Made by a program: the position numbers and the translations under genes. A stretch of DNA of 64,000 bases from Brachyspira suanatina (GTDB lineage: Bacteria > Spirochaetota > Brachyspiria > Brachyspirales > Brachyspiraceae): contig NZ_CVLB01000001.1 in NCBI RefSeq assembly GCF_001049755.1, positions 1,258,995 through 1,322,994 on the forward strand, in the 5' to 3' direction. Position 1 is the first letter of the stretch; each line of letters begins with the position of its first letter. The notes beneath the pieces were generated by a model. It had not been told where the DNA came from. It was given only the letters and a program-made list of their open reading frames with translations, and made no database searches. Shown one piece after another: positions 30,339 through 36,479 of this stretch.

Positions 30339-30361
30339 TGTACAAATTAGTTTTAAACAAT

Positions 30362-30395
30362 AAAAAAGGTTATGACAAAAATCATAACCTTTTTT
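30362..30395 (-). terminator. Terminator of the minus-strand TPR operon
   Basis: AAAAAGGTTATGA pairs with TCATAACCTTTTT around the loop CAAAAA. A and T runs on both sides make it usable in both directions; it lies just after the stop of the convergent TPR gene. Confidence 0.88.
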
Positions 30396-30426
30396 AATAG
30401 AGTATAATAAATGAGTTATTAGTTCA

Positions 30427-31788
30427 TTAATCGCTGAATGATATAACACCTTCAATAATAGCCTCAAATCTTTCAGGTTCAATGATCATTACTGTATCAT
30501 CTACTTTCAAGTTAGGAGCAAAGTCACCTATACTTATTAAGAAAGAGTGGGCACTCTTGTACTGTCTTGCATATTCCATAAACTGATCAACAGTATCCTG
30601 TCTCATAGGATATCCTGAAGTATCTAATGCAAATGTACTCTTATATGACTGACCTTCAGAACCGAATTTCTTAATAGTTACAAAGAATACTAATGTGTCG
30701 GATTTTTTAGTATGATCTGTAACTACATATCCGTTTAATGTTAATATTCTATAGAAGTATTTTTCAAGATATTCTATAATATCCATTTCCAATGCAGTTC
30801 TGAATGCATTATTAGCAATAATAGAACTGTAAGTCTTTAATTTCTGATCAACATCTAAGTATATGTTTCTTATAGATTTAATTATTTCCCATTGTTTAAC
30901 AGCAGCTTCAAACTGTTTGTTTTTTACCAAAGTTTCAGCATATCTGTATCTTTCATCTACAACTTTTTCACTTGCTATATTTTCTTTAGTTAAAACCTGT
31001 CCATAATATTCTCTAGCTTTAGAGAAGTTACCAAGTTCATAATAAGAATTGGCAAGATTCAAAGATATTGCATCTTTATCTGATATATCATTACTTTCAT
31101 AAGCTATTTCTAATTCTTTTATAGCATTTTGGAAGTCTCTGCTTGAAGATAATATTTCACCTAAAAGTAAATGGTACTCAGGATTAGAATTATCTAAAGC
31201 AATAGCTTTTTCTATCTGCTGCTGAGCTGCATGATATGAACGAATTTTATAAAAACAAAAAGCCAACATATACAATAGTTGAGGATTACTATCATTTTGA
31301 GCTACTGCTAATGAGAAATATTTTTGTGCTTGTACCCATTCCCCATAATTATAACAAACAAGTCCTGCTTTATATAATGAATCATAATCCTGATCCCTAA
31401 TTTTTGTGATCATATCATATTCATCTATAGCTTTTTTACTGTTTCCTGTTTGTTCATATATTTTTGCTAAGAATTCTCTTACAGACAATTCTGTTAATTC
31501 TTTTGTAAAATAAGCTCCGTCTATCATATTTTGTAATGCGGCCATGGCCAATATATATTGCTGCTGTTTATAATACATATTAGCAGTCATCCATAATATA
31601 TTAGCATCTTTTTTATATTTAGGGTCTAATGTATTAATCTCTCTCATGGCTACATCATAATTTTGTTCATTATAAGCCTGAACGATTTTTTTTAGTTTAA
31701 TAGGGTATGATCCACTCTTTATAACATATTGAGTGGCAAAACCTAATAAAACGATTAAGACTAATATTACAATTAATGAAGCTTCCAC
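30427..31788 (-). CDS. Membrane-anchored TPR protein with restriction-endonuclease-like C-terminus
   Basis: A 453-residue protein with one N-terminal membrane segment (about 4-23). A long array of TPR-like helical repeats follows (about 35-320), for example AQQQIEKAIALDNSNPEYHLLLGEI cut at YH. The last 110 residues resemble an Mrr-type restriction-endonuclease fold: EKYFYRILTLNGYVV, then a later TVDQFMEYARQYKSAHSFLI and ISIGDFAPN. The catalytic Q-x-K of that fold is not visible, so it is probably inactive or only structural. It is the third gene of the operon that begins at 35012. Function unknown; a scaffold role is inference. Confidence 0.7.
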   Translation of the reverse strand: MEASLIVILVLIVLLGFATQYVIKSGSYPIKLKKIVQAYNEQNYDVAMREINTLDPKYKKDANILWMTANMYYKQQQYILAMAALQNMIDGAYFTKELTELSVREFLAKIYEQTGNSKKAIDEYDMITKIRDQDYDSLYKAGLVCYNYGEWVQAQKYFSLAVAQNDSNPQLLYMLAFCFYKIRSYHAAQQQIEKAIALDNSNPEYHLLLGEILSSSRDFQNAIKELEIAYESNDISDKDAISLNLANSYYELGNFSKAREYYGQVLTKENIASEKVVDERYRYAETLVKNKQFEAAVKQWEIIKSIRNIYLDVDQKLKTYSSIIANNAFRTALEMDIIEYLEKYFYRILTLNGYVVTDHTKKSDTLVFFVTIKKFGSEGQSYKSTFALDTSGYPMRQDTVDQFMEYARQYKSAHSFLISIGDFAPNLKVDDTVMIIEPERFEAIIEGVISFSD

Positions 31789-31802
31789 GGTTCTTATCCC
31801 TT

Positions 31803-32840
31803 TTATTCATAGTATATAACTGGACTTCCAGTTTCTTCTGATTCATTTAATGCATCTTTGATTTTTTTCATCATATTATCTTTTACAACAAATACAGACA
31901 TTTTATTTGACATATTATGAGAAAAATCAAATCCGCTTACAGCCATAGATACATTAATATCTACGGGTTCTTCATCATATTCAAAATTATAATTTTTTAA
32001 TGCTTTAAAATATCTTTTTGTAGCTTTCCAAGCCTCTTCTTCATTAGCAAAAATCACAGAATATATAATACCTTCATAAAGTAGGCATTGATTTTCACCT
32101 ATTCTGGCATTTTTCTTTATCGCCCTTATAAGTTCATCTTCTAATTTTTTATAAATAGCATTTCCATATTCTTCTCTTATAGAACTTGCATTTGATATTT
32201 TAAAAGCTATCACTCCTATAGCATGCTTATATCTTTGTGAAAATGCTATTATATTTTTTATGGTACTAGAAAATATTTCATATTCTGATTTATCTATTCT
32301 AACAACTTCATAGTCATTATTTGCATAATTTTCATCATCTTGTTGTATCACATTATTTTCTATACTATATCCTAAATTATACAATATAGTTTTGTACATA
32401 AATATCATAAGTTTTTTTATATTATATGATAACTGTATTGATATAAAGAATAATCCTATAGCTAATATGCTGCTATAGAATGTATAATCCCTTTTATATA
32501 ATAACTTTTGTATTTCTGGAACATAACTTAAAGATAATATTAATATTATGGAAGTAACAGCAAAAAAAAGTAAATTTTCTATTGTTCTAGAAACTCCTGT
32601 ATAACTTTTTGTAGGCTGCATTAATACTATAATAAAAGCATATAATATAGAAATTCCTATCCATATCCATACCCAAACATCAAGAGCATATAATAAATAC
32701 ACAAAGAAATTTTGAGTATTAGGAGATATCAACAATATATATATAGGTATTATTATAGCACTATATATTAAAGTGCATATCATAGCGGCAAAAAATCCAT
32801 ATATATATGATTTAGATAAGTTTATTTGTTTATCTTCCAT
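31803..32840 (-). CDS. Polytopic membrane protein with decayed GGDEF-like domain
   Basis: A 345-residue protein. The N-terminal half has about five hydrophobic segments (roughly 12-38, 43-75, 85-105, 118-140, 143-160). The C-terminal half (about 200-340) follows the fold pattern of diguanylate cyclases: HAIGVIAFKISNASSIREEYG in the place of the LDxDxFKxxND motif, and INVSMAVSGFDF near the end. At the catalytic hairpin it reads YEGIIYSVIF rather than GGDEF, so cyclase activity is unlikely. It sits 14 bp before the TPR gene and 24 bp after the fusion enzyme gene. Signal sensing or a scaffold is inference. Confidence 0.65.
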   Translation of the reverse strand: MEDKQINLSKSYIYGFFAAMICTLIYSAIIIPIYILLISPNTQNFFVYLLYALDVWVWIWIGISILYAFIIVLMQPTKSYTGVSRTIENLLFFAVTSIILILSLSYVPEIQKLLYKRDYTFYSSILAIGLFFISIQLSYNIKKLMIFMYKTILYNLGYSIENNVIQQDDENYANNDYEVVRIDKSEYEIFSSTIKNIIAFSQRYKHAIGVIAFKISNASSIREEYGNAIYKKLEDELIRAIKKNARIGENQCLLYEGIIYSVIFANEEEAWKATKRYFKALKNYNFEYDEEPVDINVSMAVSGFDFSHNMSNKMSVFVVKDNMMKKIKDALNESEETGSPVIYYE

Positions 32841-32864
32841 AATAGTTACCTAATTTTGTACTAA

Positions 32865-35012
32865 TTAATATTTAATATAGTTAACATCACCTGTTTGTCC
32901 AAAGAGCTTTATCATCTTTTCTAGTTTATCTCTATTTGAATATAATAAATATTCAAGTCCCTTTCTTCCTTTTCCTATAATAGAGATAAAACTTTCTTCA
33001 GTAACACAAACAGCATTTGCTCCCAACACTAAATATTTAAATACATCAACTCCATATTTAGGAGATTCTGCAAGTATATTAAAGTGGTGATTTGAATTAA
33101 AATCTACTTTATTTACAGTATCGGCAACTTTTTCCATACCTTTTAATGCATACTTATTATTATTTGAAAAATAAACATTATTTATATGAGATATTTTCAT
33201 ATTATCTAAATCTCTATTGCTTGATATCCCTTTTATGATTAAAGGTATATCTAATTGCTTGGATATTTTTGCTAAATCTTTTTCAGTTTTGAAATGTATC
33301 TTATTTAATTCATTTATATTATAGCAGTAAGTAAAATCTATACCAACAGCACAAGCACCATTCCTTTCCGCTGATTGTAATTTCTGTGTTACTATTTCTT
33401 TGGTATTATTACCATCTATCATAATAATACCTCTTTTTCTTCCTTTTATAGTTTTTAATGATAATTCAAATATTTCATTATCATTAAAGTCATTGAATAT
33501 TGCAAGTACTTCACAATTAGAAGCTACATCTATAACTGTTTCATAATATTCTTTTATATCCATAATGCCGTTTATTGCTTCTCTTAAATTATGGATTGTA
33601 TCTATTATAGTAGGCTGAGATAGATGCATATTAAATATATTGGTTTCTATATTTGCCTCTGGTTCTTTATGAATTATACTAGGGCTGAAATTATATTCAG
33701 AAAGTCCTGTTTTATCTTCAGTATCTTCAACAAATAAATATGAAGCATTTGAATTAGATGACAATTTTTCTTTAGCAACTTTTTTGATTTCATCTATAGT
33801 GATGCTTTTTTCATCTGTTAATTTGAAATGTACGTAGCTCATAGCTTTATTTGCCATAGCTATAGCTTCATCTCTTGTATTTCCTACAGCTATTATATTA
33901 CCGGCTTTCTCTAAATTGTTTGTAGGAGTAACTAATATATCACCAGGTTTTGTTTTAATAAATATTTCTTTAATACCTTCTATTTTTTTAGCATTTTCAA
34001 CACCGTCAATAGATTCTATTATTCCTGTGCCCGGAAGAAATGCTTTTTCAACAGAAACTTTATCCCATTTAGGCTTTAAATCACTTGGAGGATTTCCTAA
34101 TGCTATTTCTATTGCGTTTTTTATTAAATTTACGCCTGTAGCAAGAGGGTAGGTGTATGCACTCATAAAACCGCCGGATAATCTTGCCGCAATTTCTCCA
34201 ACCATAGCACCATTTTTTGTTACTTTTATATCACCTTTGGCAGCTCCGATTTTTAAATTTAATGCTTTTATACCAGCTTTCATAACATTAATAGCATCAT
34301 CCAGCTTTTCCTTTTCTAATGCAGAAGGCAGTATATGACCTGTTTCTATAAAAAATGGAGGAAATTCTATTATTCTGTCTGCAACACCTGTAACATATAT
34401 TTCATCATTATATATAAGCATATCAATAGAAAGTTCCGGACCATCCATAAATTCTTCCATTATTACTTCTCCTGAAGGCGAAGCACTTTTAGCTCTGTTA
34501 AATGCCGCTAAGACATCGCTTTCACTTGATACTTTCATTACACCGCGAGCCCCCATATTATCAGCAGGCTTAACAACAACAGGTGTATTTAAATGCTTAT
34601 ATGCCTCCATTGCCTCTTCATAATTCCATACAGGAAAGAAATTCGGCTGAGGAACATTATTTTTCTTGAATCTTTCACGCATTCTTATCTTATTTGAAGC
34701 AGCATAAGCATCTTCAAATCTATTTCCGGGAAGTCCCAAAGCATTAGCTACAGCAGCAACGGTAGTAGAAGCATCAGTACCTACAGTGATAACTCCATGT
34801 ATTTCCATTTTCTGGCTTAAATCTCTTGCCGCCCTTACACTTCCATCAACATCTCTAGTGGACACTATCATAGGATAATCTGCTATCTTCATACCTGGAG
34901 CATCTTTATTATAATCAAAAACTATTGTATAAAGTCCCATTTCCTGAGCTATTTGTATTGCTGGTACTTGAAGAAGTCCCGCACCTATTATTATTATACG
35001 TTTGCCTTTCAT
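32865..35012 (-). CDS. ATP-grasp enzyme fused to a degenerate FMN-dependent dehydrogenase barrel
   Basis: A 715-residue cytoplasmic protein with two parts. Residues 1 to about 310 are an ATP-grasp ligase of the carbamoyl-phosphate-synthase/PurK kind: Rossmann start IIIIGAGLLQVPAIQIA, VVKPADNMGARGV as the ATP-binding loop, VIMEEFMDGPELS, and GEIAARLSGGFMS as the metal-binding block. A small domain follows (to about 430). From about 450 it matches FMN-dependent alpha-hydroxy-acid dehydrogenases: ANIETNIFNMHLSQP, LIIKGISSNRDLDN and DVFKYLVLGANAVCV. The active-site SNHGGRQ motif is replaced by SNNNKYA, and the phosphate-binding region lacks its Arg. The barrel is therefore probably not an oxidase. 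Ligase substrates are unknown. Confidence 0.8.
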   Translation of the reverse strand: MKGKRIIIIGAGLLQVPAIQIAQEMGLYTIVFDYNKDAPGMKIADYPMIVSTRDVDGSVRAARDLSQKMEIHGVITVGTDASTTVAAVANALGLPGNRFEDAYAASNKIRMRERFKKNNVPQPNFFPVWNYEEAMEAYKHLNTPVVVKPADNMGARGVMKVSSESDVLAAFNRAKSASPSGEVIMEEFMDGPELSIDMLIYNDEIYVTGVADRIIEFPPFFIETGHILPSALEKEKLDDAINVMKAGIKALNLKIGAAKGDIKVTKNGAMVGEIAARLSGGFMSAYTYPLATGVNLIKNAIEIALGNPPSDLKPKWDKVSVEKAFLPGTGIIESIDGVENAKKIEGIKEIFIKTKPGDILVTPTNNLEKAGNIIAVGNTRDEAIAMANKAMSYVHFKLTDEKSITIDEIKKVAKEKLSSNSNASYLFVEDTEDKTGLSEYNFSPSIIHKEPEANIETNIFNMHLSQPTIIDTIHNLREAINGIMDIKEYYETVIDVASNCEVLAIFNDFNDNEIFELSLKTIKGRKRGIIMIDGNNTKEIVTQKLQSAERNGACAVGIDFTYCYNINELNKIHFKTEKDLAKISKQLDIPLIIKGISSNRDLDNMKISHINNVYFSNNNKYALKGMEKVADTVNKVDFNSNHHFNILAESPKYGVDVFKYLVLGANAVCVTEESFISIIGKGRKGLEYLLYSNRDKLEKMIKLFGQTGDVNYIKY

Positions 35013-35186: not shown

Positions 35187-36479
35187 ATGATTAAAAAAAG
35201 TATTATTATTATTTTATTTGTTTTGATAGTTTCATGTAATAATAAAATTACAAATCCTTCAGAAACTATCAATAGTATAACTTATTATAATACATCTGAT
35301 GCAGAAATAGATAAATTTAATATTTCTAGATATAGTAAATATAATGAAGTTTATCTTTGTAAAGATGTTAAGTTTAAAAAAATAGCTGAATCACCTAATA
35401 GTATTATTTATTTAGAAGATGGATATGATATAAGTATTGATAAAATAAAAAGTTTCTGTACCAAATTTGAAGAATATTATCCTATTGAAATAGAAATGTA
35501 TGGTGAGCATACAGATATGGATGCAAATGGTAAAGTTATATTATTAATAGCCAGACTTACTGATGAAGGTAATCCGGCACCGCCTAAAGGATATTTTTAT
35601 ATGGGAGATTTATTTGATTATATAGAAGATTCAAATAAAGGAGAATATTTATATATAGGTGTTGATGCTATAAAAAATGAAGCTGATTTTACTTTAGGCA
35701 TTATTTTGCATGAATTACAGCATTTGATTAATGCTAGTGTGAATTTCATGAGGGGCGGAAAAGAAATGGATTTGTGGCTTAATGAGTCACTTTCAGAATC
35801 AACATCTATTCTATTTGCCCCTTTAATTATTGATTACAGAGTGGGATTATTTAATGGAATTGATTATTATTCTTTTTATAGTTGGTATAATACTTATAAT
35901 GTTATAGATAATAATCCTAAATATATATATAATAGTTATGCCTCTGCATCAATATTTATGCAATGGCTTTACACTAAAGATAAATACATTTTTCAAAAAA
36001 TAGCTCATTCTGATATTGCAAAAAACAGTTATCAAAGACTTTTAGATTCTGTTCAGCATTTAAAACAGGGCGGATATGTATGGGAAGATTTATTTTTTGA
36101 TTGGATAGAAGCAGTAGATAATGGAGCTGTTTCAGGTGTTTCAATAAATAAAGTCGCTCCAAATTCAAGTATAAAATTAGATCCAGGTTCTTTAGTTGTT
36201 TATGACTCTTTAGATGATGATTCTCAAAATGCTAATATAGCTAATCTTTCAAGAAGGATAATCAATAAAGAAAACAAAAAAAATATATTAGCTTTCAATA
36301 ATATTACATTAGATGCAGTGCCATATATTCCAGATGATAAAAATGTAGTTATGTTTAATACTCCTAATATTAATAGCTCATTATTAAGGAATACTATTAA
36401 TATTTATAAACCTAAAGAGGCTATTGGAAATCATTTTATAGATAGAATAATAAAAATAAATGATCTAAAAAATCAGTAA
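35187..36479 (+). CDS. M30-like (hyicolysin-type) zinc metalloprotease lipoprotein
   Basis: A secreted, membrane-anchored peptidase of 430 residues. Signal peptide with lipobox Cys17 (LIVSC). The zinc motif HELQH spans residues 175-179, with the general-base Glu176, and the downstream Glu in LWLNESLSE (about 200) is the likely third ligand. The layout, with an N-terminal domain of about 160 residues and the motif near the middle, resembles M30 hyicolysin-like proteins. A secreted protease is consistent with a host-associated spirochaete. It is a single gene; substrate is unknown. Confidence 0.78.
   Translation: MIKKSIIIILFVLIVSCNNKITNPSETINSITYYNTSDAEIDKFNISRYSKYNEVYLCKDVKFKKIAESPNSIIYLEDGYDISIDKIKSFCTKFEEYYPIEIEMYGEHTDMDANGKVILLIARLTDEGNPAPPKGYFYMGDLFDYIEDSNKGEYLYIGVDAIKNEADFTLGIILHELQHLINASVNFMRGGKEMDLWLNESLSESTSILFAPLIIDYRVGLFNGIDYYSFYSWYNTYNVIDNNPKYIYNSYASASIFMQWLYTKDKYIFQKIAHSDIAKNSYQRLLDSVQHLKQGGYVWEDLFFDWIEAVDNGAVSGVSINKVAPNSSIKLDPGSLVVYDSLDDDSQNANIANLSRRIINKENKKNILAFNNITLDAVPYIPDDKNVVMFNTPNINSSLLRNTINIYKPKEAIGNHFIDRIIKINDLKNQ

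Follow-up and report, generated by a model that had tools for sequence, protein, structure and literature searches.

A three-gene operon in the 64,000-nucleotide stretch of the Brachyspira suanatina genome analysed here (the window) encodes, in order, a fusion of an ATP-grasp ligase with an FMN-dehydrogenase-like domain (gene 1), a membrane protein with a GGDEF fold (gene 2) and a membrane-anchored TPR protein with an Mrr-like end (gene 3). We tentatively propose, with a probability of about 0.4, that the products of genes 2 and 3 would form a cytoplasm-facing membrane complex with a scaffolding or regulating role and that the ATP-grasp ligase would have been recruited to it in Brachyspirales. 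The operon is built from known domain kinds and is undescribed in the papers searched, among which no description of the gene 1 fusion was found either; an earlier account drawn from the letters of the DNA (the sequence-only reading) had likewise suspected an undescribed system.

Operon layout and conservation of gene order

The three ORFs are co-directional on the minus strand and are separated by 24 nt (genes 1 and 2) and 14 nt (genes 2 and 3), exactly the spacing of 14-24 bp on one strand given in the sequence-only reading. The operon has the following features:

32865-35012, minus strand: gene 1, ATP-grasp ligase and FMN-dehydrogenase-like fusion, 715 aa
33813-35012, minus strand: intact ATP-grasp half of gene 1 (residues 1-400), with an L-amino-acid-ligase-type C-terminal subdomain; assigned from motifs and dN/dS (0.049)
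32868-33647, minus strand: decayed FMN_dh-like half of gene 1 (residues 456-715), with no Cys cluster, SNHGGR changed to SNNNKY and DGGxRxG lost
31803-32840, minus strand: gene 2, membrane protein with a C-terminal GGDEF-fold domain, 345 aa
32361-32840, minus strand: helical membrane region of gene 2 (about residues 1-160), with long hydrophobic helices in the model at a pLDDT of about 43-73
31806-32285, minus strand: GGDEF-like domain of gene 2 without the GGDEF hairpin (residues 186-345), with a conserved ARxGENQC just before the hairpin position
30427-31788, minus strand: gene 3, membrane-anchored TPR protein, 453 aa, GTG start
31723-31776, minus strand: N-terminal membrane helix of gene 3, then basic residues; read from the sequence
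30853-31704, minus strand: TPR repeats of gene 3 (residues 29-312); from a domain search
30430-30837, minus strand: non-catalytic Mrr-like (restriction-endonuclease-related) domain of gene 3 (residues 318-453); from profile comparison and dN/dS (0.021)
30361-30396, minus strand: intrinsic terminator-like hairpin at the operon end, with a 16-pair stem and a T-run

The hairpin sits between the end of gene 3 and a convergent tsf-like gene, and this position is the main argument for it, the terminator scan having found 2 such sites with 1.5 expected by chance. The divergent neighbour at the other end (35187-36479, plus strand) encodes a 430-aa, lipoprotein-like protein that has no Pfam match and carries a metallopeptidase-like HELQH motif.

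Gene 2 is present in 30 of the 31 genomes of the order (Brachyspirales), the sole exception being an assembly that is 85% complete, and in all 30 it is preceded by gene 1 and followed by gene 3, including two genomes of a second family (G029 and G030). The sequence-only reading had called the combination more than chance and had staked it on gene order being kept across Brachyspira; this conservation upholds it on both counts. Outside the order, a profile search of 296 phylum genomes detected strong relatives of gene 2 (E ≤ 1e-17) only in G040, G070 and G032, from three other families (f12, f27 and f4 respectively), and in each of these gene 3 follows gene 2 directly, either 7-14 nt away or overlapping it. 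G040 has the full three-gene operon, its gene 1 being a 400-aa ATP-grasp protein without the FMN half. G070 and G032 keep the gene 2-gene 3 pair and have their gene 1 relatives on other contigs (in G070, comparison of the ends of the contigs bearing gene 1 and genes 2-3 revealed no overlap), and we therefore take the pair to be the constant unit. The profile search also gave weaker matches (E 1e-6 to 1e-10); of these, two were read, and both proved to be proteins with a GGDEF domain, the GGEEF motif being intact in one, and were rejected as gene 2 orthologues.

Selection on the parts of the operon

By the Nei-Gojobori method, dN/dS (medians over pairs, which share ancestry) was 0.021 for the Mrr-like domain, the lowest among the operon's domains, 0.049 for the ATP-grasp half, 0.058 for the TPR region, 0.15-0.18 for gene 2 and 0.23 for the FMN-like half. 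Every part is under purifying selection, none is a dying gene, and pseudogene decay of the operon is ruled out by these values. The description of three decayed domains in the sequence-only reading needs qualifying: only the FMN half decayed in this lineage and the ATP-grasp half is intact, while the losses in the Mrr-like and GGDEF-like domains are long-standing features of their families and not a coincidence in this operon. The word 'decayed' itself misleads, because dN/dS lies at 0.02-0.23 in every domain.

Gene 1

The fusion recognised in the sequence-only reading is borne out by matches to ATP-grasp_4 (E 1e-13, 51 bits versus a cut-off of 27), LAL_C2 (E 7e-18, 65 bits versus a cut-off of 29) and FMN_dh (E 5e-13, 49 bits versus a cut-off of 24.9, over positions 206-337 of 350). 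ATP-grasp motifs kept phylum-wide are KPADNMGARGV, EEFMDGPELSIDM and KGDIK...GEIAARLSGG, and the lysine loop, acidic motif and E..R metal site are preserved in every aligned member. With its profile scores above the curated cut-off and its ATP- and metal-site motifs, this half is classed as an LAL-type ATP-grasp ligase and, judged by these residues, is apparently an active carboxylate-amine ligase.

Relatives of gene 1 were found in 184 of 198 Spirochaetota genomes (E ≤ 1e-30); all seven sampled genomes of family f37 are without one, and in some other families the matches are partial or weaker. Across the 19 neighbourhoods examined beyond the order, which like all neighbourhoods here come from a simple ORF caller that makes errors in GC-rich contigs, the neighbours of gene 1 relatives are varied and gene 3 does not adjoin them; linkage to genes 2 and 3 is therefore a peculiarity of this order and of G040. 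The fusion of ATP-grasp and FMN_dh that carries a four-cysteine motif (L116-L143, L152-L162) is phylum-wide, occurring in nearly all sampled spirochaete families except f37; the motif is a possible Fe-S site and the fusion a possible spirochaete marker enzyme. At one locus in a distant family (L155, genome G043), the gene 1 relative comes directly after genes for proteins of 298 aa, 628 aa, 702 aa (GAF/SpoIIE-like) and 116 aa (STAS-like), an arrangement that may hint, as a second pointer, at a ligase tied to partner switching.

In the FMN half of the window, the catalytic His-Gly-Gly-Arg and the FMN phosphate loop DGGxRxG are absent, with SNNNKY and AESPKYG in their place. Outside the order, this half keeps a CxxCxxCxGxxC-type cluster, HGGR and the DGGxRxG loop in 37 of the 37 genomes that have it (one reads DGA). 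Inside the order, G030 retains the Cys cluster, HGGR and phosphate loop; in G029 and G028 the catalytic stretch reads KGGR and the cluster and loop persist; and G026, G027 and all Brachyspira examined are without cluster, HGGR and loop. Judging from this residue series, the FMN half has been inactivated stepwise in one lineage. Within Brachyspira, selection on it is relaxed compared to the ATP-grasp half (dN/dS 0.23 versus 0.049), and it is still constrained.

The FMN-like half also falls into two allele groups that cut across species relations (window positions 32868-33800, Brachyspira loci L083-L101), with 93-98% identity inside the window's group and about 64-71% to most others, and there is no comparable deep split in the ATP-grasp half of the same loci. 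Six loci form one FMN-like clade (support 100) that is rejected by the gene 2+3 data (AU p 0.0002, for a group picked after seeing the data). The two groups look like the outcome of recombination near the domain junction.

Gene 2

AlphaFold2 modelled the C-terminal domain of gene 2 with a pLDDT of about 70-88, and a fold search with the model gave 80 matches in the PDB (E ≤ 0.001); those listed, 50 in number, are all GGDEF-containing proteins, with a target TM of up to 0.81. At the sequence level, TIGR00254 matches below its cut-off (E 4e-4) and the gene 2 profile also picks GGDEF chains weakly, with FimX as the best. The GG(D/E)EF hairpin is reduced and the metal-binding Asp is missing, with FKISN replacing FDIDxFK, in agreement with the GGDEF-like fold lacking its catalytic hairpin that the sequence-only reading had described. 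These losses are old, since they are common to G029, G030 and G040. Four residues (R246, E249, G303 and F306) do not vary among eleven diverse members of the family, and G248 and Q251 are almost invariant.

Gene 3 and its neighbourhoods

Some match to the gene 3 family occurs in 274 of 296 phylum genomes, many of these being generic TPR matches, and the layout of anchor, TPR and C-terminal domain is common to 28 diverse aligned members. The basic residues that follow the membrane helix suggest a cytoplasmic body. The TPR region matches the FimV_Cterm, PilW, FlcA and YbgF models, all below cut-off. The C-termini of family members from other spirochaetes match two profiles, Mrr_cat (E down to 1.6e-18) and NA-iREase1, the 'inactive restriction endonuclease' profile. 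The Brachyspira C-terminus itself has no Pfam match to Mrr_cat, and hhalign aligned the window's group to the Mrr_cat-matching spirochaete C-termini with a probability of 98% (E 2.8e-13); homology of the window protein to Mrr_cat would thus run through family members. In our reading of the alignment, the catalytic Lys of QxK is replaced throughout the family, and in the window Asp has become Phe and QxK has become AxD, so that the earlier description of a TPR protein with an Mrr-like C-terminus lacking catalytic residues stands. AlphaFold2 modelling of the window's Mrr-like domain with 13 closely related sequences was not confident (pLDDT 38.5).

In other families, gene 3 adjoins genes for STAS, SpoIIE, HATPase, a cNMP-binding protein or a metallophosphoesterase. 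STAS is near gene 3 at 16 of the gene 3 loci read, in several families and often with SpoIIE or HATPase, and G030 has a single run of gene 1, gene 2, gene 3, a 1023-aa TPR protein, SpoIIE and STAS. No SpoIIE, STAS or HATPase was seen beside gene 3 in Brachyspira, whose SpoIIE phosphatases are located elsewhere, three of them in the genome of the window. At five loci (L069, L074, L076, L077 and L186), a gene 3 relative is followed by a 603-aa cNMP-binding protein, a small membrane protein and STAS, and in four of the five a 734-aa-type protein without a Pfam match comes next. This run from gene 3 to STAS is another uncharacterised spirochaete signalling module.

Discussion

The core of the complex we propose would be the pair of gene 2, with its membrane helices and inactive GGDEF fold, and gene 3, with its anchor, TPR and inactive Mrr-like domain. 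The sequence-only reading had suggested that the three proteins could make up a membrane signalling or assembly complex, and such a joint role is likewise conjectural here. We infer the pairing because gene 2 was never seen without an adjoining gene 3, and because there are precedents in which an inactive GGDEF domain docks on FimV or a TPR partner controls a GGDEF protein. The FimV domain is TPR-like. Most likely, then, the GGDEF domain of gene 2 would dock on the TPR superhelix of gene 3. Less firmly, the Mrr-like domain could serve as a head that binds a ligand, nucleic acid or partner rather than as a nuclease, and the ATP-grasp ligase, co-made with the pair in Brachyspirales and in one genome of another family, might be recruited or regulated by it; the FMN-dehydrogenase half of the Brachyspira ligase may have been retained as an appendage for docking or regulation. 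The proposal is also favoured by the GGDEF structures that the gene 2 model matches, the intact ATP-grasp motifs, the purifying selection on every part and the SpoIIE/STAS/HATPase regulators found next to gene 3 relatives in other spirochaetes, which G030 combines with the operon in a single run. Against it speak the low confidence of the Mrr-like model (pLDDT 38.5) and the varied surroundings of gene 1 in most spirochaetes, so that its tie to the pair may amount to co-transcription only.

It is possible, if somewhat doubtful, that gene 1 is instead an independent metabolic ligase merely co-transcribed with genes 2 and 3, which alone would be the functional unit. The 184 of 198 genomes with gene 1 relatives, their varied neighbours and the lack of gene 3 beside them in the 19 outside neighbourhoods would fit such a role, as would G032, in which genes 2 and 3 are paired while a different contig carries the gene 1 relative (L130), an intact fusion. 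However, two families of the order preserve the linkage of gene 1, which is met again in G040, and nearly all linked copies, with the exception of G030, have the FMN half altered or absent. For gene 3, membership of a SpoIIE/STAS partner-switching network that is unlinked in Brachyspira appears somewhat unlikely: two Brachyspira SpoIIE loci examined do not adjoin gene 3 and many gene 3 loci are without STAS nearby, even though STAS is near it in the 16 loci mentioned and Brachyspira retains SpoIIE phosphatases elsewhere (three in the genome of the window).

We consider it decidedly unlikely that, instead of being a signalling device, the gene 2-3 pair serves the envelope or the periplasmic flagella as a localisation landmark or assembly factor. 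GGDEF-FimV docking does serve polar localisation (PMC9061725), and the TPR region matches the FimV_Cterm, PilW, FlcA and YbgF models below cut-off, but these TPR matches are generic, and flagellar genes were not recognised as consistently linked in the neighbourhoods read. An operon degenerating toward loss, or the remnant of an anti-phage defence, is extremely improbable and largely refuted by the selection test (dN/dS 0.02-0.23); catalytic losses in three domains and weak matches between Mrr-containing PADLOC models and a distant relative of gene 3 speak for it, but gene 2 is open in all 30 genomes, the window proteins are without a PADLOC match and the distribution resembles that of a core gene.

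Returning to the membrane complex, it would, if true, provide a spirochaete-specific route from membrane to ligase. A bolder version, which we think unlikely, has the dead GGDEF, Mrr and FMN-dehydrogenase folds acting as docking and sensing modules round a living ATP-grasp ligase, such that the state of the membrane would control a peptide- or protein-ligating reaction in spirochaetes. For three uncharacterised protein families, of which two are found across nearly the whole spirochaete phylum, the analysis provides hypotheses that can be tested, together with a clear series for the stepwise inactivation of one enzyme domain in a fusion whose other half is intact, and a case of an inactive Mrr-like fold under stronger selection than an intact enzyme domain in the same operon.

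Comparison with known systems

A close parallel to the proposed docking is offered by PdeB, whose inactive GGDEF domain binds HubP at its FimV domain and which, as would be the case for gene 2, uses a GGDEF fold for docking and not synthesis; PdeB, however, keeps GTP-binding residues that gene 2 is without, which counts against the precedent, and gene 2 also differs in having no EAL domain and in having its proposed partner encoded in its own operon (PMC9061725). In RcbAB of Vibrio vulnificus, a GGDEF protein is under the control of a TPR partner linked to it and, like genes 2-3, a two-gene operon joins TPR and GGDEF, but RcbB is an active cyclase with its own TPR and RcbA has no described Mrr-like head (PMC12282931). 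Relatives of gene 3 match both NA-iREase1 and Mrr_cat, yet, unlike in those domain families, the domain is carried by a membrane-anchored TPR protein, not a NACHT protein or nuclease, and its catalytic residues are replaced.

For gene 1, the L-amino-acid ligase BL00235 (PDB 3vot, E 5e-25) and the ATP-grasp superfamily structure PDB 4dim (E 3e-25) align over the whole ATP-grasp half and have in common with it the LAL_C2 subdomain and the ATP- and metal-site motifs, whereas the fused FMN_dh-like domain and the operon shared with membrane proteins set gene 1 apart. The FMN-dependent 2-hydroxyacid dehydrogenases (flavocytochrome b2, lactate oxidase) align with gene 1 over the second half of their barrel; compared to these enzymes, the Brachyspira FMN half has lost the catalytic His/Arg and the phosphate-binding DGG loop, while its relatives in the phylum keep both and carry the four-Cys motif as well.
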